Positions 5,516 to 12,233 of a DNA stretch of 12,281 nt are shown in pieces. The stretch is from a bacterium (GTDB lineage: Bacteria > Patescibacteriota > Patescibacteriia > UBA1558 > GWA2-36-10). The position numbers were made by a program, and so were the translations under genes. Numbering within the stretch: the first letter of the stretch is position 1; the number at the start of each line of letters is the position of its first letter. Below the pieces are notes generated by a model, which did no database searches, was not told where the DNA came from, and was given only the letters and a program-made list of their open reading frames with translations. The stretch lies in the NCBI GenBank assembly GCA_030690875.1, contig JAUYFP010000108.1, positions 1 to 12,281 on the forward strand, given 5' to 3'.

Positions 5516-5558
5516 CAAAAAAGATGAAATTATTTACCTCATCTCTTTTGTTGGCTCC
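5516..5558 (+). repeat. Dispersed repeat, module L, copy 1 (left flank of the defence operon)
   Basis: A 43-nt sequence perfectly identical to 11122-11164. It ends with the 8-nt core TTGGCTCC, which also begins module R. The two module L copies are in the same orientation and bracket the minus-strand five-gene operon. It contains the bidirectional hairpin described separately. Confidence 0.85.
5521..5550. terminator. Bidirectional hairpin terminator between convergent genes
   Basis: AGATGA (5522-5527) and TCATCT (5539-5544) form a stem with an 11-nt loop. On the minus strand the stem is followed directly by a run of six T, and on the plus strand by CTTTTG. It lies 10 nt after the subtilase stop and about 105 nt past the end of the defence operon, so it could stop transcription from both sides. 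The stem is short and AT-rich, so strength is uncertain. Confidence 0.55.
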
Positions 5559-5649: not shown

Positions 5650-7413
5650 CTATTTTTCTATTTCTAAAAGTAATAGTTCAACCAACTCCAAAAAATCTTT
5701 TCTGTATAATTCTTTACGTTCGGATTCCTTGCAAATTTCTTTAATCTCTTCGCTTTCAATTTCCACTTTTATTTTTTCCAACTTTTCTTTCCGCGCTATT
5801 TTCAACATTGATTCTCGCTTTTTATTATCAACATTTTCCCATGTGTCTTTGTTGTTATTGTCCAAGGTTATTTTTAACTTGTCCCAATAGTGAGAGAAAA
5901 AATTAAAAATGATGTTAATAGTTTCTTCTTTTTGGGATTTAGCTTTTGCATTCATCATCTTAGCAAGTCTCTTGTCTCTATCTACTTCGCTTTCCTCAAC
6001 AGATCCAGTCCATGACACACTTATACCTAAAATATAAAAATTTGGCTCTTTCTCTATCGCATATTTCACTTCCGTCGAGAAAAATAACATTAAAAATGAT
6101 GTAAACAACGATGAGTACACATTTGGGAAGATACCGTTTATAACCTCTGTTAAGTCCTTATCAAAATCAACCTTTTTATCACTTTTAAATATTCTATCTC
6201 GCGACCATTGCAAAAACTCATTTAAAATAACACGGGGGATCCCGCTTTTTTTATTTGCCATTGATATTTTCCACTCCGCAGGAAAATTATGTTCCCAAAT
6301 TTCATAGTTTGATAGCGCGCTGTCAATTTCACTAAAGAAAGTCGGGCAAAAACTTGCAAAAAGTCCAGTGATGTAATGGTCGTACTTTTGCTTTTCTTCT
6401 TTGTCTTTAATTTCATTCAATTTTTCCATGCTTTCTTCAATGTGTTTTTTGAATGACGAAAAGAGCTGATATGGACCATGCCCGTCTTTGAGTAGGATTT
6501 TGGTTATTGCTTGAAAAAATTCTCCACCAAAATAGTGCCAGTTCCAAAAACGATCTCTCTTTAAGTTAGTTTTCTTGTATATTTTCAACGCCCACGATCT
6601 AAAAGTCGGAAAGTGCTTTTGTGAAATAAAATTTTGAATTCTTTTTTCCGTGTCATATCCTTTTAGCCAAAGTTGTTGCTCATTCCAAAGTATCTCATTC
6701 CACTCAAACGCTTTTGGCAGTATTTCATAACCTATTGAAAAGCGGTCACGTTTTTCAATGTTGCTCACATAAGTTTGTGAAAGCTGAACCGCAAGTTCAA
6801 ATTTTCCGTTTCTTATAGCGTCGTCAATATGAGATATAAAAATTTTCGTAAAATCCCTTTCATTAAATTCTGATTTTTCAGACCAAAAAGAATTCCAAGC
6901 ACGCACCATTTTTTCGGCTTTCACTTTATTTCTAAATTTCAATATTTTTGAAAAATTAAGGCTTTTGAGAAATCCTATTTCAAATTTATATCTCTTTCCT
7001 CTGAAAAAAACTTGAAACTTGAAAATTGGTCGCATTAAAAACAAAGTGGCAATAATGGTAAAAATGAGAATTATAAATTTTGATTCCAAACTAACACTGT
7101 ATATTTGCTCATTGTTTATGGAATCTTTGAAAAAGGAAATTATAAAGATTGATAAAACTGCTAAAACAGCGGTGACGGAAATGTTAAGAATTTCATAGGA
7201 AATAACCATCTTTGAAAACTCACCTCTTTTCTCTTGCGTTTTTACTTCAGAAAAAATTTGCTCCCCAACAAAAATTAGTAACATTAAAATACCTATGATT
7301 ACATTTTGAAATAATGAAGGATCAAGATTTTGCAAAAATGGTTTAAAAAAATTCTCAATGTTTTGCAAAAGGAATATCCCTGACATCCATGTTTGTTGAA
7401 GTATTTCTGTCAT
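5650..7413 (-). CDS. Membrane-anchored protein of unknown function, last gene of the defence operon
   Basis: A 587-residue protein that I cannot assign to a family. Three hydrophobic segments lie near the N-terminus (about residues 35-54, 74-95 and 112-130), followed by a large charged domain (about 140-587) with aromatic-rich stretches such as RDRFWNWHYFGG near 290. The last 80 residues are a Lys/Glu-rich helix, probably a coiled coil. Basic residues after the third helix suggest that the large domain is cytosolic. It starts 38 nt after the DUF262-HNH stop, with no strong Shine-Dalgarno, and lies on the same strand. A membrane protein with a big cytosolic domain at the end of a restriction/toxin operon could be a membrane effector or a sensor, but that is inference from context only. 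Its DNA is clearly more AT-rich than the gene before it. Confidence 0.8.
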   Translation of the reverse strand: MTEILQQTWMSGIFLLQNIENFFKPFLQNLDPSLFQNVIIGILMLLIFVGEQIFSEVKTQEKRGEFSKMVISYEILNISVTAVLAVLSIFIISFFKDSINNEQIYSVSLESKFIILIFTIIATLFLMRPIFKFQVFFRGKRYKFEIGFLKSLNFSKILKFRNKVKAEKMVRAWNSFWSEKSEFNERDFTKIFISHIDDAIRNGKFELAVQLSQTYVSNIEKRDRFSIGYEILPKAFEWNEILWNEQQLWLKGYDTEKRIQNFISQKHFPTFRSWALKIYKKTNLKRDRFWNWHYFGGEFFQAITKILLKDGHGPYQLFSSFKKHIEESMEKLNEIKDKEEKQKYDHYITGLFASFCPTFFSEIDSALSNYEIWEHNFPAEWKISMANKKSGIPRVILNEFLQWSRDRIFKSDKKVDFDKDLTEVINGIFPNVYSSLFTSFLMLFFSTEVKYAIEKEPNFYILGISVSWTGSVEESEVDRDKRLAKMMNAKAKSQKEETINIIFNFFSHYWDKLKITLDNNNKDTWENVDNKKRESMLKIARKEKLEKIKVEIESEEIKEICKESERKELYRKDFLELVELLLLEIEK

Positions 7414-7451
7414 GTTTTGTTCAGCCTAAATTTAAAAACTTTTTATGGGGT

Positions 7452-8561
7452 TTATTTTCCAGATTTGGTTCGATTATGCTCCTTACACAACATTTGGCAA
7501 TTTTCAGCAACAGTTTTCCCGCCCTCATACCAAGGCGTGATGTGATCTGCTTCCATTTCTTCAATTTCCCATTTCTTTTTCTTATTCTCGCCTTTGCAGT
7601 GCGAGCAAATACCTTTTTGTCTCTCGTACGCTTCTCGCTTCATCTTTTCGGTAAAAGCACGAATGTTCAGATATTTTTCATTTCCGGTTAAGACATATTC
7701 GTAGATGCCGGACTTTTTAGTCACATCTTCATCTTGCATCAACTCGGTTATTTCCTTTTCCAGTTTCTTTGAATCAAATTTTTTATTTTTGAATTGGTTA
7801 TACAAATCGCCCCACGACACATTGCTCATTTCGCGACGATAACTTAGAAAAATCTTTCGTGTCCATGTAACAACATCTTGAAAATACTGCCATAATTTAT
7901 CAGCATTTTTGTCGTGTTGGTGCTTGGCCATATAATCCTCAATCTTGTCGCCATTGATCCACGAAAGCGCGGTTTCTAAATATTCTTGTCGAATTGGTGA
8001 GCCACTGACAAGCGATCCGCCATCATTTGCCAATAAGTACGCCACGCAATTTGATTTACTGAATTTTAATTTTGCGTCTGAAAGCCATGGGCCAGTGTAA
8101 ACCGCATTGCGAATTTCTTGGTCGGTTAGTTTTTCCCCGGCGATATTGATAATCCTAAACCAATCTAGTCGCTCCTTGTCCGTGCCTTCACAGAAATAGA
8201 TCATCAATTCATAATCCAAAATTTTGTCCTGCTCTTCTTTGGTTAGATTATGAAAAAAGCGGTCGTTCAACGAAAAATCACCAGTAACATATTGTCCAAT
8301 ACTGATGGTACGCTGTTGACCGTCCAACACTTCATAGCCGCCATCATCTCTAATCATCCAATACATCACGTTCAGTGGAAAGCTATTTTTGATTGTTTCA
8401 ATCACGGCGTTGCGTTGCTTTTCTTTGTACACAAACTCACGCTGATATTTCGGGCGAATATTCAATTTGCCCTCATAAGCCGTCACGCCACCTTCTTTGG
8501 CGCTTTCTTTGTAGCCAGCGATTACTTCACGAATTAAAATTTTATGTAGATCGATTTTCAT
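7452..8561 (-). CDS. DUF262 (GmrSD/SspE-like) protein with C-terminal HNH nuclease
   Basis: A 369-residue fusion. The N-terminal DUF262/ParB-like domain shows IRPKYQREFVY (35-45), the signature DGQQR (80-84), and LTDQEIRNAVYTG (145-157). In GmrS, SspE and relatives this domain carries NTP-dependent regulatory activity that governs DNA cleavage. The C-terminus is a zinc-type HNH nuclease: Cys319-x2-Cys322, Asp339-His340 in ADHITPW, Asn354, Cys359 and His362. These residues look intact, so nuclease activity is plausible. The ATG comes 1 nt after the methyltransferase stop, which implies translational coupling and a joint role. The likely function is the restriction component paired with the upstream methyltransferase. 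Whether it cuts unmodified DNA (classical restriction) or modified DNA (as GmrSD and SspE do) cannot be told from sequence. GC content here is the highest in the operon (one 60-base line is 47%). Confidence 0.9.
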   Translation of the reverse strand: MKIDLHKILIREVIAGYKESAKEGGVTAYEGKLNIRPKYQREFVYKEKQRNAVIETIKNSFPLNVMYWMIRDDGGYEVLDGQQRTISIGQYVTGDFSLNDRFFHNLTKEEQDKILDYELMIYFCEGTDKERLDWFRIINIAGEKLTDQEIRNAVYTGPWLSDAKLKFSKSNCVAYLLANDGGSLVSGSPIRQEYLETALSWINGDKIEDYMAKHQHDKNADKLWQYFQDVVTWTRKIFLSYRREMSNVSWGDLYNQFKNKKFDSKKLEKEITELMQDEDVTKKSGIYEYVLTGNEKYLNIRAFTEKMKREAYERQKGICSHCKGENKKKKWEIEEMEADHITPWYEGGKTVAENCQMLCKEHNRTKSGK

Positions 8562-8562
8562 A

Positions 8563-9630
8563 TTATTTTTTTACTTTTTTATTCTTAATCAAAACTCTAA
8601 AATACGTTGATTTTCCACCTATCTCCGTCATGTGAAGGTGGTTTTTTACTGCATTGTCATTCAGACCGGCGACATCTAGTACTGTGTACCGATTTAATCC
8701 ATCAACAATTTCAAACTGTCTGGGATTGTATTTATGTAAAAAAGTTATAGGTACTCCCATCACACCAGTATAATCCATAGGGATTTGTTCTGTCCTATCT
8801 ACATTTATAGCATTGTAGTTATCAAAGTTAGAATATTCTTTCTTAGTATATTTTTTGTACAAAACCAATTCTTCACTTCGTTTCGGTACATCAAGGTTGG
8901 TAAACCAAACTACGCTTTTTGGGAAAGCATACTTTTTACCGTCAATAATTTTGTAATAGCTTTCATAGTGATCTGGAATTTGAAATAAAATATTTTTACC
9001 ATTTAAACTTTGTCCGAGCCACATTTTATTTTCTTTAATCAATTTAAAGATTTCTTTATAAGTAATCGCATTTTGATTACCCATAATTAAGAACTTTTTC
9101 TTGTGCTTTACGAGTTGAGCAACATATTCGCGGAATAAAGAAAACGGGGGGTTGGTTATGACTATATCGGATTGCTTGAGTAATTCGATGCATTCGTCGC
9201 TCCGAAAGTCACCACTACCCCGCAGAGGGGTTGCGGTGTTTTTGTCGTGTTTGAGCAAATACTTAACATCATCAAGGTTTATCGCTCCATCTTTGTCTGT
9301 ATCCGGCACTTCTTTGATTTCAATTTTGAGCGGTTGCTTGCCCTTTGACCCAGCCACTTGAAATAGTGGTAATTGGCCTCCAACGATCGGTGAACCGCTG
9401 TAACTCGTGGTGATGAGCTTCTTTAATCCAAGAGCATTAAAGTTGGATGCAAAGTATTTAAAAAAGTTGCTCTCGTATGGATCATCGCAATTACAATAAA
9501 CAACCTTGCCCCGAAACTGTTCTTTATAATGTTTTAGTTCTTTTTCAATATCAATAAGCTGAGTATAAAACTCGTCTTTTTTGGCTTTGCTTGCATTGCG
9601 CAAATTTTTGTTTAAAGATTTCTTTTCCAT
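8563..9630 (-). CDS. EcoRI-family adenine-specific DNA methyltransferase
   Basis: A 355-residue protein that closely resembles M.EcoRI as I remember its sequence. Shared blocks include KKDEFYTQ (18-24), VVYCNCDDP (43-51) followed by SNFFKYF, GDFRS (140-144), the catalytic motif TNPPFSLF (159-166), MGVPITFLHK (291-300) and a C-terminal FRVLIKNK. The family transfers a methyl group from S-adenosylmethionine to adenine N6; M.EcoRI acts on GAATTC, but target specificity here is a prediction. Compared with M.EcoRI, extra residues lie at about 108-135 and include DTDKDGAINLDD, which looks like an EF-hand or dockerin calcium loop. There is also an insert near 308-335. It follows abiEii by 4 nt and precedes the HNH gene by 1 nt. 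No EcoRI-like endonuclease is present, so the DUF262-HNH protein is the likely partner. Confidence 0.93.
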   Translation of the reverse strand: MEKKSLNKNLRNASKAKKDEFYTQLIDIEKELKHYKEQFRGKVVYCNCDDPYESNFFKYFASNFNALGLKKLITTSYSGSPIVGGQLPLFQVAGSKGKQPLKIEIKEVPDTDKDGAINLDDVKYLLKHDKNTATPLRGSGDFRSDECIELLKQSDIVITNPPFSLFREYVAQLVKHKKKFLIMGNQNAITYKEIFKLIKENKMWLGQSLNGKNILFQIPDHYESYYKIIDGKKYAFPKSVVWFTNLDVPKRSEELVLYKKYTKKEYSNFDNYNAINVDRTEQIPMDYTGVMGVPITFLHKYNPRQFEIVDGLNRYTVLDVAGLNDNAVKNHLHMTEIGGKSTYFRVLIKNKKVKK

Positions 9631-9634
9631 AACT

Positions 9635-10330
9635 TTATTTTTCGCTCTCTGCTCGGGCTTTTAATAAAAATATAGTTTCGGACTTCAATTTTGCCCGGCT
9701 CCAATCTTTGTGCGGTTCGGTCAAAAAGTCGCCCAGGCCGTCCAAAATATGCCTGTTGTCCAGCTGTTCCAATTGCTCGGCTGTTAATTGTAAAACCTCT
9801 TTAAATGTTTTACCGGAACGCTGCTCAACGATTTCTTTATTGATAGGCCAGTGGTTTTCCAAGAAAAACCAAACATCATAAACATCACGGCTCGTCTTGC
9901 CTATCCTCTCGTGCATGGCCATTAGCTTATGAGCAAACATATCTTCCTGAACCATTACCAACATTGATATGCCAAGCAATGTTTTAAGATCATATTTTGA
10001 TCCGAACTGCCTTCGGTTAACTTCAACTTTTATCCTTTGCGCGCCGGGCGCATACGAAAGAACATTCAATAGGTTGAATTTCTTAATTCTGGAGTCAGCA
10101 ACGGTTCCATAGCTAGTGATTATTTTTTGAATCTTCTCAAACACCTCAGCTTCTTTTTCTTCGTTTAATAAATCAAAATCCAAATCAACCGAATCACGAG
10201 TCAAGCCATAGAACAACAAAGCAGCCGTTCCACCCTTGAATCCCAAATGAGGCGCAATCGAAGTATTAGAATAAATATCCTTTAAAATCTGCAATAAAAT
10301 ATTTTTGTGTTTTGAGTAATCTAATTTCAT
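9635..10330 (-). CDS. abiEii: AbiEii-family nucleotidyltransferase toxin
   Basis: A 231-residue member of the AbiEii/AbiGii family (DUF1814-type nucleotidyltransferases), the toxin half of type IV AbiE systems. The nucleotidyltransferase motif is complete: GFKGGTAALLFYGLTR at 30-45, then DSVDLDFD (46-53) with acidic residues Asp49 and Asp51. Downstream family motifs are EDMFAHKLMA (129-138) and TSRDVYD (146-152). AbiEii toxins act on RNA: MenT3, a related enzyme, adds nucleotides to tRNA acceptor ends, though the target here is unknown. The start codon overlaps the abiEi stop by 4 nt (ATGA), the usual antitoxin-toxin arrangement. All key residues appear present, so an active toxin is plausible. 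Confidence 0.93.
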   Translation of the reverse strand: MKLDYSKHKNILLQILKDIYSNTSIAPHLGFKGGTAALLFYGLTRDSVDLDFDLLNEEKEAEVFEKIQKIITSYGTVADSRIKKFNLLNVLSYAPGAQRIKVEVNRRQFGSKYDLKTLLGISMLVMVQEDMFAHKLMAMHERIGKTSRDVYDVWFFLENHWPINKEIVEQRSGKTFKEVLQLTAEQLEQLDNRHILDGLGDFLTEPHKDWSRAKLKSETIFLLKARAESEK

Positions 10331-10944
10331 GTGTTTTCTGGTTTTATTGATTGATCGCTTTTGTAGTGATCAAAATATTGCTTAACTTTCTTTTCCATGC
10401 GCTTATTGTTGTAGATTGGTAAAATCTCAAACACCTTGCCCCAATCCAAAGCGTTCAAATTATCAAAATGATAATCTTTGCTTACATAGACTCTGTCCAA
10501 GAACGCACGCTCTTTCGTAGCTGTAGCAATTCCGTCCGCGTGCTCAATACCAGCCGTGTTGCTTAACACATAATCCTTCATTCGAATAAATGAGATTTTC
10601 TGATCATCAGCTTCAATATCACGGGTCACATACGAAGCAACAAAAATGTTGCTGTAAAACTGAAAATTAATTCCAGCCCTTGTCAAAATAGTTTCGAAGC
10701 TTATATAAGATGGGGTATAAATACGCGTTGCCAATTCAAAACGGTTATAATTTTTATCCTTAGTATAAATACCTCTGTGAACCCTTATTAATTTGCCTGT
10801 TTTTACGTAATTGTTTAATCTGACCCTAACAGCGTTTTTAGCTTCTTCGCCCCACAACAAAGCAACGTCTTTAACCGAAAAGACGGTTTTAGTGGATCTC
10901 AATAAAACATCTATGAATTGGCCTTTTGTTGGTTTATTATCCAT
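10327..10944 (-). CDS. abiEi: AbiEi-family antitoxin and transcriptional repressor
   Basis: A 205-residue protein with an N-terminal winged helix-turn-helix (about residues 16-60, ending LIRVHRGIYTK). The AbiEi C-terminal region follows, with RIYTPSYISFETIL (74-87) and ATKERAFLDRVY (142-153), which correspond to the conserved SPSYIS and EKALLD-type blocks of the family. AbiEi proteins neutralise AbiEii and repress their own promoter by binding inverted repeats. This is the first gene of the five-gene minus-strand operon, and the promoter upstream has a palindrome over its -10 box, so it may control the restriction-modification genes as well as the toxin (inference). No Shine-Dalgarno precedes the ATG. 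Confidence 0.9.
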   Translation of the reverse strand: MDNKPTKGQFIDVLLRSTKTVFSVKDVALLWGEEAKNAVRVRLNNYVKTGKLIRVHRGIYTKDKNYNRFELATRIYTPSYISFETILTRAGINFQFYSNIFVASYVTRDIEADDQKISFIRMKDYVLSNTAGIEHADGIATATKERAFLDRVYVSKDYHFDNLNALDWGKVFEILPIYNNKRMEKKVKQYFDHYKSDQSIKPENT

Positions 10945-10985
10945 AATCTTGACTGTTAGTTATATTTAACCTAAGGTCCAGTTAA

Positions 10986-11000
10986 ATTATATGATATAAT
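10986..11000. promoter_or_regulatory. Palindrome over the -10 box, candidate AbiEi operator
   Basis: ATTATAT-G-ATATAAT is a perfect inverted repeat with 7-bp arms around one base, and it covers the -10 box. AbiEi proteins are known to bind inverted repeats in their own promoters, so this is a reasonable operator candidate. AT-rich palindromes also arise by chance in this kind of sequence. Confidence 0.4.
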
Positions 11001-11014
11001 CAATAACAAAGCAA
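10986..11014 (-). promoter_or_regulatory. Promoter of the abiE/restriction operon
   Basis: On the minus strand, TTGCTT (11009-11014) and TATAAT (10986-10991) are separated by 17 nt. The -10 box matches the sigma-70-type consensus at all six positions; the -35 matches at three. The start point would lie near 10979, leaving a leader of about 35 nt before the AbiEi ATG. Confidence 0.6.
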
Positions 11015-11121: not shown

Positions 11122-11164
11122 CAAAAAAGATGAAATTATTTACCTCATCTCTTTTGTTGGCTCC
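11122..11164 (+). repeat. Dispersed repeat, module L, copy 2 (right flank of the defence operon)
   Basis: Identical at 43 of 43 positions to 5516-5558 and in the same orientation. It includes the AGATGA/TCATCT hairpin followed on the minus strand by six T. Its last 8 nt (TTGGCTCC) are shared with module R copy 2, so at this site the two modules form one continuous 100-nt unit. Confidence 0.85.
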
Positions 11165-11221
11165 GCCCCGCTCGAGTGAATCACTAAAATCTCTCGCGGG
11201 ACGTCGCAGTAAAAATAAAAA
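11157..11221 (+). repeat. Dispersed repeat, module R, copy 2
   Basis: Matches 3402-3466 at 63 of 65 positions. The change at 11179 (A for G at 3424) still permits pairing in the inner hairpin on the plus strand (A-U instead of G-U). On the minus strand the module ends in CGGAGCCA, the same eight bases as the 3' end of the nearby tRNA-Asn, which may be coincidence or shared origin. Confidence 0.85.
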
Positions 11222-11250
11222 TACCAACTTCTGTTGGTATTTTTATTTTT
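11211..11250. terminator. Strong bidirectional intrinsic terminator
   Basis: A perfect inverted repeat of 18 bp (11211-11228 and 11233-11250) around the 4-nt loop TTCT. The core is ATACCAAC/GTTGGTAT, flanked by A-rich then T-rich arms, so either strand ends in a T-rich tract. It lies downstream of tRNA-Asn on the minus strand and would insulate the tRNA cluster from the defence operon. Confidence 0.75.
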
Positions 11251-11269
11251 GGCTCCGGGAGGGGGATTC
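11247..11269 (-). repeat. Partial copy of the tRNA-Asn 3' end
   Basis: Twenty-three nt (11247-11269) are identical to 11312-11334, the acceptor 3' strand, CCA and part of the T arm of tRNA-Asn. Beyond this, weaker similarity continues for about 12 nt into the T arm with a 2-nt deletion. It could be a tRNA remnant or a scar of an attachment site. Confidence 0.75.
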
Positions 11270-11429: not shown

Positions 11430-11475
11430 CTGCTCCCTGCCTGCCGGCAGGCAGGTACCACTGAGCTATCCCGGA
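11430..11475 (-). pseudogene. tRNA-Asn 5' fragment interrupted by a palindrome
   Basis: Bases 11456-11475 equal the first 20 nt of tRNA-Asn, and 11430-11435 continue the tRNA sequence (GAGCAG on the minus strand). A 20-bp palindrome separates them. The similarity then stops, so this is a truncated copy upstream of the intact gene. Its 5' bases also supply the last codons and stop of the GIY-YIG gene. Confidence 0.8.
11436..11455. repeat. 20-bp GC palindrome inside a tRNA-Asn fragment
   Basis: CCTGCCTGCCGGCAGGCAGG, a perfect 10+10 palindrome, inserted between GGTA and GAGCAG of the tRNA fragment (minus-strand reading). An identical copy lies at 12199-12218 in a fragment of a different tRNA, at the same junction. 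No target duplication is seen. Confidence 0.88.
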
Positions 11476-12190: not shown

Positions 12191-12233
12191 AACTGCTCCC
12201 TGCCTGCCGGCAGGCAGGTACCCCGCGTCGTAA
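12191..12233 (-). pseudogene. tRNA-fMet 5' fragment interrupted by a palindrome
   Basis: Bases 12219-12233 equal 12138-12152 (the 5' end of tRNA-fMet plus six flanking bases), and 12191-12198 equal 12130-12137. The two parts are contiguous in the intact gene but separated here by the 20-bp palindrome. It lies 44 nt upstream of the intact tRNA-fMet in the direction of transcription. Confidence 0.8.
12199..12218. repeat. 20-bp GC palindrome inside a tRNA-fMet fragment
   Basis: Identical to the palindrome at 11436-11455 and placed at the same junction, GGTA before and GAGCAG after, on the minus strand. Confidence 0.88.

Follow-up and report, generated by a model that had tools for sequence, protein, structure and literature searches.

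An AbiE toxin-antitoxin pair heads a restriction-modification operon in a Patescibacteriota genome, probably in place of the usual regulator

Introduction

The nuclease of a restriction-modification (R-M) system must not act before the DNA has been methylated, and C proteins are the textbook answer to this timing problem. Extracts of PMC12707154 describe the typical C protein as activating as well as repressing. A regulator of another family is found in the AbiE type IV toxin-antitoxin (TA) system: extracts of PMC3985639 report that AbiEi of Streptococcus agalactiae represses its own operon via inverted repeats at the promoter, and extracts of PMC7319586 that an AbiEi relative of Mycobacterium tuberculosis autorepresses via repeats that include a pair overlapping the transcription start. 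Here we describe a set of five genes in which an abiEi-abiEii pair is followed by genes for an EcoRI-family adenine methyltransferase (the methylase), a DUF262-HNH nuclease and a membrane protein of 587 amino acids (aa). The set lies on contig JAUYFP010000108.1, a stretch of 12,281 nucleotides (nt) that was analyzed as a whole and is referred to as the window; it belongs to a 718-kb genome bin of the Patescibacteriota with a completeness of 69%. We consider it probable that a mobile AbiE control-and-addiction cassette took the regulator slot of this R-M operon, with AbiEi inferred to control the downstream genes. The parts are known and their arrangement appears to be new. In the literature no title or abstract opening was found that describes AbiE heading R-M operons or AbiE cassettes in gene-end repeats, which is weak evidence of absence, as most subscription journals lay outside the coverage.

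Results

Exchange of operon heads

The relatives nearest to the window operon carry the same genes behind a different head. In locus L015 the HNH nuclease is 92% and the methylase 74% identical to the window's, in L054 the values are 79% and 68%, and the membrane-protein tail is also present in both. In place of AbiE, a ∼70-aa XRE regulator stands directly before the methylase in these two loci, and in L015 its gene ends 2 nt before that of the methylase. The window has no small XRE-type C protein gene and is in this respect not a C-protein-controlled R-M system. The same head before a different body was found in L241, where an AbiEii 94% identical to that of the window is followed by a different, frameshifted methylase start. 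Over 70 residues this broken start is 90% identical to the methylase of L240 (genome G001, from the window's genus), whose methylase and HNH nuclease are 57% and 41% identical to the window's and in which the methylase is still preceded by an AbiEii stub of 26 aa (88%). The body type of L240 follows intact abiEi and abiEii genes in L199 and L254, which share 65% identity in AbiEii, 63% in the methylase and 74% in the HNH nuclease, and L246 contains AbiE, a DUF7695-like frame and then a methylase start at the contig end. Outside the window the join of AbiE, methylase and HNH is thus intact in L199 and L254 and decayed or cut in L240, L241 and L246. A start-less, stop-interrupted XRE remnant was found between abiEii and an AAA/DUF559 helicase-nuclease gene in L141 and L193, which were treated as one element because they share 3791 of 3793 bases there. 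By comparison, these loci show that heads have been exchanged either way at the junction of abiEii and the methylase, and an AbiE cassette has probably replaced the usual XRE regulator head of a type II-like R-M operon.

AbiE in front of other R-M genes

AbiE pairs also precede R-M genes of other types. Type III mod and res genes follow AbiE in L140, L201 and L243, and a type III mod gene cut by the contig end follows it in L119. In L142 a HaeIII-type restriction endonuclease (REase) and a C5 methylase stand behind AbiE and a small intervening DUF7695 gene (68 aa), and a GIY-YIG frame lies between abiEi and abiEii. The Eco57I/IIG-like set of L195 begins 93 nt behind AbiE, whose abiEi, possibly decayed, overlaps with an extended abiEii frame, and the gene behind AbiE in L141/L193 encodes an AAA helicase with a DUF559 nuclease domain. 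The junctions between abiEii and the next gene measure -11 to +9 nt in L140, L199, L201, L243, L254 and the window.

The frequency of such neighbors was assessed for 84 AbiE units (57 + 27), 37 of which have no codirectional gene of at least 100 aa within 400 nt. Of the 47 next genes of the others, 45 were scanned after exclusion of two that were very long; eight (L119, L140, L142, L195, L199, L201, L243 and L254) gave PADLOC matches to methylase or REase models at E 1e-10. This count does not include the window, L240, L241 and L246. Among 75 control genes, which are next genes elsewhere in the same loci, at least one match to MTase_I models and at least one to MTase_II models occur among the 25 of 102 families listed, and the comparison of 8/45 with 2/75 gives a Fisher p of 0.006, the control figure being a lower bound. 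In an AbiEii tree of 58 rows, built without loci L240-L259, six of the seven R-M-linked rows, the window included, fall into one 19-row clade (support 100/98). The row of L119 in this tree is long and doubtful, and L254 (61% identity) may fall outside the clade.

Two further features were observed around AbiE. A DUF7695 or DUF7695-like frame stands directly behind abiEii in L142, L145 and L246 and is a possible extra cassette gene. In L205, AbiE is flanked by an AAA_14/DUF4143 ATPase gene on one side and by a stretch ∼66% identical to this gene over 814 bp on the other.

Promoter and candidate operator

The promoter in front of abiEi was recognized by comparing 14 AbiE upstream regions, those of the window and of 13 close relatives, both R-M-linked and free. 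In the window the two boxes are separated by 17 nt (TTGCTT-17-TATAAT, 11014-10986), and both are common features of the regions compared (Table 1). The initial annotation had assigned the whole set to a single recognizable promoter. The promoter was borne out by this comparison; it may not be the only one, and the operon may have more than one transcription start, since weak sites are listed inside it. A consensus promoter scan did not list the abiE promoter and gave 49 weak sites in the window, where 43.5 are expected by chance.

A dyad ends 6-7 nt before the abiEi start codon in the 14 loci (7 nt before the ATG in the window) and, in the window, covers the expected transcription start. Of its cells 76.5% are paired, compared with at most 42.5% in slid controls; two-sided changes number 17 against a shuffled mean of 7.0, and the covariation score is 0.282 against 0.155 after shuffling (no shuffle of 500 reached it, and the slid controls stayed at or below 0.177). 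Of the five measures, two were unremarkable, namely the pairs changed on both sides (54 of 500 shuffles as high) and the further pair types (342 of 500). Promoter and dyad are kept in both R-M-linked and free AbiE, and the dyad is likely the AbiEi operator. That AbiEi would also repress the methylase, nuclease and membrane-protein genes is inferred from the autorepression by S. agalactiae AbiEi and its M. tuberculosis relative via promoter repeats.

Flanking repeats

All five genes of the window are bracketed by a perfect 43-bp direct repeat (Table 1), the arrangement of a mobile unit with a long target duplication. Since this one repeat surrounds the whole 5.6-kb set, arrival of the set in a single piece is the simplest interpretation and a probable one. 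No third copy with up to three mismatches was found in the 718-kb genome bin. The left copy forms part of a 17-pair terminator-like hairpin (5552-5514). In 18 relatives the neighboring peptidase was matched in part only, so that no orthologous empty site could be read.

Other AbiE units were scanned for direct repeats of E 1e-6 or better within 400 nt on either side; these strict limits replaced looser ones, with which an earlier scan had matched 30 of 125 controls. Repeats were present at 10 of 54 units in the first batch and at 1 of 516 random intervals from the same loci, and at 5 of 27 units and 0 of 257 random intervals in the later loci. Pooled, this amounts to 15 of 81 other AbiE units against 1 of 773 intervals (Fisher p 2e-15, intervals within a locus not being independent). 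Repeat sequences vary between loci, with lengths of 23 to 143 bp and identities of 82 to 100%. In six of the ten first-batch cases (L150, L154, L198, L206, L207 and L208) one copy starts 0-12 nt after the abiEii stop and the other ends 35-144 nt before the AbiE frames, which is so close that no room is left for a recombinase gene. A recombinase would have to act on these units from elsewhere, and homologous recombination is our simpler guess. In L241 a 59-bp, 100% identical repeat brackets AbiE with an R-M remnant, as the window repeat brackets AbiE with R-M genes.

The upstream repeat copy lies inside the coding 3' end of a neighbor gene in L150, L154, L202, L206 and L207, and a translated scan of 3' ends matched 6 of 30 AbiE units and 8 of 291 controls at E 0.01 (1 control below 2e-6). 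Between the coding copies of these five loci, 22 codon differences are synonymous and 16 non-synonymous, judged against a neutral expectation of 1:3 that is itself an assumption; the exceptions are L207 (3 to 7) and L202 (0 to 1). Because the differences lean synonymous, the copies in most of the five loci would stem from two genomes, which suggests that the cassette carried a gene end along. By the same count, simple target duplication is an unlikely source of all repeats, and since several of the flanking repeats are diverged coding 3' ends, an imported copy is favored over plain duplication. Flanking repeats as a general property of methylase-HNH pairs were considered and rejected: exact repeats of at least 20 nt occur in 2 of 61 usable loci and in 2 of 98 shifted controls, and one of the two loci, L042, probably represents a contig-end overlap.

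The methylase-nuclease core

Loci with DUF262-HNH proteins were collected by a scan of one genome per species, and the best 80 of 246 matches were analyzed. A methylase accompanies the nuclease in 77 of these 80; of the other three, L024 and L075 offer less than 500 nt upstream, and the 4.5 kb available in L091 contain no methylase. The two genes are 1 nt apart in 34 of the 76 loci measured. Adjacent methylase and nuclease genes that are inherited together, as here, characterize type II R-M systems, and because a methylase accompanies the nuclease so often, modification-blocked cutting is likelier than modification-dependent cutting. The pair is also present on plasmids, mostly from cultured bacteria, where a DUF262 protein and an "adenine-specific methyltransferase EcoRI family protein" are annotated together in 13 of the 25 records listed; the HNH protein of a Macrococcoides canis plasmid is 59% identical to the window's over its full length. 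Judged by these loci, methylase and DUF262-HNH nuclease are a widespread, ordinary R-M core. As the pairing is common and the flanking genes differ, the variation lies at head and tail. The gene before the methylase may encode a small XRE or MerR-like regulator, a Ymh-domain protein, a GIY-YIG protein or others, heads having been checked with Pfam in L015, L016 and L033 and read by eye from their first residues elsewhere. In the window, the methylase has the motif NPPF at residue 160, and the nuclease has LDGQQR at residue 79 and the HNH residues at 339-363. No literature was found that pairs the Pfam name of the methylase with HNH.

Several observations concern the core itself. One or two extra genes stand between methylase and nuclease in L037, L045, L058, L069, L076 and others (gaps of 0.3-1.7 kb). 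The nuclease is more conserved than the methylase, with a mean pairwise identity of 79% against 62% and a higher HNH value in 99% of 2346 non-independent pairs (L013-L092); this was not used as an argument, because most loci were chosen by their HNH protein and selection accounts for part of the effect. Variation is very high at methylase residues 316-330 (mean column identity 0.13), and specificity could sit in the methylase, given this variable region and its faster change. L042 is a 6.2-kb contig with the R-M pair and matching stretches at both ends (37 and 74 bp), and may be a small circular element.

The membrane-protein tail

The 587-aa protein has hydrophobic stretches at about residues 30-58, 68-100 and 103-135 and no match in Pfam, PADLOC or NCBIfam. 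Its family comprises 235 homologs with invariant W, F and H positions, and no Pfam domain was present among the 120 of them listed. No plasmid matches were found. It stands behind the HNH gene in 2 of the 80 loci, L015 and L054. In L138 (4162-5982) and L139 (8184-9938) it occurs among apparently chromosomal genes without R-M genes, so the protein is not tied to restriction.

Gene layout and neighborhood

The order and spacing of the five genes given in the initial annotation match the coordinates of the open reading frames (ORFs) exactly (Table 1): a 4-nt overlap is followed by gaps of 4, 1 and 38 nt. Its assignments to AbiE, EcoRI-type methylase and DUF262-HNH families were confirmed by Pfam and PADLOC, that of AbiEi by PADLOC only. 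AbiEi scores 23.6 bits against Pfam AbiEi_4, just below the 25-bit cut-off, and 35.8 bits against NCBIfam AbiEi, far below its cut-off of 150 bits; AbiEii reaches 64.6 bits in Pfam (cut-off 22.5) and has the motifs GGTA at residue 33 and DLDFD at residue 49. With these AbiEii motifs, the overlapping upstream abiEi and the inverted repeats at the promoter, the pair shows the features of type IV AbiE. No AbiEii relatives were confirmed on viral contigs, AbiEii had no plasmid matches, and class and order searches around genomes G060 and G121 gave no further close AbiE. Among solved structures, weak matches were obtained for the HNH protein and AbiEii and none for the AbiEi, methylase or membrane-protein profile.

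Table 1. Features of the five-gene set in the window.
Feature	Position	Strand	Description and evidence
abiEi	10327..10944	-	antitoxin / winged-helix regulator family, 205 aa; PADLOC AbiEi 3.6e-58
abiEii	9635..10330	-	nucleotidyltransferase toxin family, 231 aa; PADLOC 9.1e-78, Pfam 1.7e-17
EcoRI-family adenine methyltransferase	8563..9630	-	355 aa; EcoRI_methylase PF13651 2e-137; PADLOC MTase_II
DUF262 (GmrSD_N)-HNH nuclease	7452..8561	-	369 aa; Pfam 1.1e-16 and 2.8e-8; PADLOC PDLC03418 REase_II 3.4e-132
Membrane protein	5650..7413	-	587 aa; 3 predicted N-terminal membrane segments and a ∼440-aa remainder; hydropathy
-35 box TTGCTT	11009..11014	-	TTG-type box in most of 14 AbiE upstream regions
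-10 box TATAAT	10986..10991	-	exactly TATAAT in 9 of 14 AbiE upstream regions
Dyad, 31 bp (11-bp arms, 9-bp center)	10952..10982	-	covariation; likely AbiEi operator
43-bp direct repeat, copy upstream of abiEi	11122..11164		100% identical to other copy
43-bp direct repeat, copy downstream of membrane-protein gene	5516..5558		100% identical to other copy

Three tRNA genes lie upstream of the set and a convergent subtilase gene downstream. Upstream of the tRNA-Asn gene and of one tRNA-Met gene (11430-11475 and 12193-12230) there is a copy of the first part of the respective tRNA, up to GGTA in the D-arm, which continues into the perfect 20-bp palindrome CCTGCCTGCCGGCAGGCAGG and then into GAGCAG, the next tRNA bases; two different tRNAs are thus affected at the same D-loop position. 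No further copy of the palindrome with up to one mismatch was found in the 718-kb bin, and of 261 loci, L038 and L057, which are unrelated, also carry it. The stretch that separates the right 43-bp repeat from the tRNA genes contains a 23-nt duplicate of the tRNA-Asn 3' part (11247-11269), overlapped by a perfect 18-bp hairpin (11211-11250).

Discussion

By comparison, three things are apparent: operon heads have been exchanged, AbiE stands before several kinds of R-M genes, and the window set is bracketed by the 43-bp repeat. Only tentatively do we generalize from this to AbiE as a recombinase-less mobile cassette, consisting of tens to ∼300 nt of upstream DNA with the promoter, abiEi and abiEii, that inserts downstream of genes, accompanied by a copy of the local 3' end or terminator. 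At the head of an R-M or defense operon it might displace a C-protein-like regulator and impose antitoxin control, and the head might be swapped between R-M bodies by recombination at the abiEii stop and methylase start.

In the mechanism that we propose for the window, the abiE promoter would drive the whole set, and AbiEi would bind the dyad, repress the whole transcript and neutralize AbiEii. Upon entry into a new cell, where AbiEi is absent, transcription would be high and AbiEi, methylase and nuclease would be made together, the methylase gene lying ahead of the nuclease gene in the transcript. Repression by AbiEi would then set a low steady level, so that AbiEi would do the work of a C protein in holding back the nuclease. 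Methylase and nuclease would act as an ordinary R-M pair. If the unit were lost, toxin and nuclease would threaten the cell, and AbiEii would make the loss costly. AbiE cassettes and AbiE-headed units would spread as mobile pieces. In this scheme, gene content and order, head exchange, the conserved promoter and dyad and the repeats are observed, and the steps of expression, toxicity, restriction and addiction are proposed. The initial annotation had envisaged a layered defense in which loss of the regulator frees both toxin and nuclease; this is possible, and it would free the protective methylase too.

Several findings weigh against the capture of the regulator slot by an AbiE cassette. No locus other than the window showed the exact five-gene set, none of the 80 close DUF262-HNH loci has AbiE beside the methylase-HNH pair (in ∼15 the contig begins inside the methylase gene or too near upstream to tell; in L030 a weakly matching AbiE pair lies more than 5 kb away), and R-M-linked AbiE is a minority among AbiE units (8 of 45 next genes). 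Defense-type models occur among the control genes as well as among the next genes, and abiEii is parted from the R-M genes by the DUF7695 gene in L142 and by the 93-nt gap in L195. L141 and L193 are almost identical DNA in two bins, and the locus counts rest largely on metagenome bins. The window AbiEi is under both the Pfam and the NCBIfam cut-off. Weak minus-strand promoter-like sites lie inside the operon, for instance at 7500-7473 (10/12), just before the membrane-protein gene, their total being near chance. Finally, no flanking repeat (exact, at least 16 nt, within 3 kb) was found at the whole units of L141, L142, L195, L199 and L201, nor at L243 and L254 when AbiE alone was taken as the unit; the L140 unit reaches the contig end.

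It is rather unlikely that AbiE only serves addiction, stabilizing the R-M unit without regulating it, a view that overlaps with regulator replacement, the odds of the two not being exclusive. Extracts of PMC3985639 report that AbiE stabilizes plasmids, and extracts of PMC3874152 group R-M and TA units as mobile addiction units. However, AbiE stands where a transcription regulator would otherwise be and has a conserved dyad of its own, and AbiEi is a known autorepressor (extracts of PMC3985639 and PMC7319586). An ordinary defense-island neighborhood, in which AbiE and the R-M operon are independent adjacent units with separate expression, is unlikely. It would fit the lack of the partner in most AbiE units and in the 80 HNH loci (as far as their upstream regions can be read), the defense genes among the controls and the weak promoter-like sites inside the set, but the -11 to +9 nt junctions in six loci, the two-way head exchange and the XRE fossil behind AbiE in L141/L193 argue against it. 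A fixed, co-evolved defense system that unites toxin, methylase, nuclease and membrane protein in one pathway is very improbable: all five genes are tightly spaced and probably moved as one between the perfect 43-bp repeats, but the set was found in no other locus examined, the membrane protein occurs without R-M genes in L138 and L139, and HNH bodies with XRE, MerR-like and other heads (mostly read by eye) are common.

We therefore retain the replacement of the regulator head by an AbiE cassette as the probable explanation. The initial annotation had joined AbiE and the R-M genes into one system and called for a survey of the co-occurrence of the five families. The joining of AbiE to R-M genes held, as it recurs in L199, L254 and with other R-M types and the set probably moved as one; a fixed five-gene system did not emerge, with the methylase-HNH pair in 77 of 80 loci, AbiE before that pair only in some loci and in none of the 80, the membrane protein in 2 of 80 and the full set nowhere else.

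If an antitoxin can do the job of a C protein and bring a toxin with it, TA and R-M systems become exchangeable parts of one operon, and such pairs may be suggested as exchangeable control units for restriction systems. This could help to explain how small genomes of the Patescibacteria type retain and exchange R-M systems, and whether AbiEi has a role that extends past its own toxin becomes testable with a simple reporter. Insertion of R-M units with long target duplications was reportedly described by Nobusato et al. in 2000, and a unit between long direct repeats without a recombinase of its own is common to both cases; here, in contrast, the repeats surround AbiE cassettes, and several are diverged coding 3' ends.

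The head of the operon resembles AbiE of S. agalactiae (extracts of PMC3985639 and PMC7319586) in its bicistronic abiEi-abiEii arrangement, winged-helix antitoxin, nucleotidyltransferase toxin and inverted repeats over the promoter. It differs in having R-M genes within 4 nt downstream and in the form of the repeats, a dyad with 11-bp arms and a 9-bp center in the window compared with two 23-bp repeats 3 bp apart in the extracts on S. agalactiae. With C-protein systems, as outlined in extracts of PMC12707154, it shares a small regulator gene that would control an R-M operon, and its nearest relatives are XRE-headed; its regulator, however, is a TA antitoxin of another family that is coupled to a toxin. 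The proposed control by AbiEi would thus parallel C-protein control in outcome, not in family. The plasmid-borne pairs of EcoRI-family methylase and DUF262 protein consist of the same two genes, to which the window copy adds the AbiE head and the membrane-protein tail. The nuclease resembles the type IV enzymes GmrSD and BrxU (extracts of PMC4619093 and PMC12707154) in combining DUF262, including a DGQQR motif, with a His-Me finger nuclease domain, but its C-terminal match is to PF01844 HNH and none to DUF1524 was found, so it lacks the DUF262 and DUF1524 combination of GmrSD. The nearest published idea is that of BrxR/CapW, in which, according to extracts of PMC9122601, one regulator family with inverted-repeat operators accompanies many kinds of defense operon; as presented there, those are WYL-domain regulators and not antitoxins with a toxin of their own, as AbiEi is in the window.

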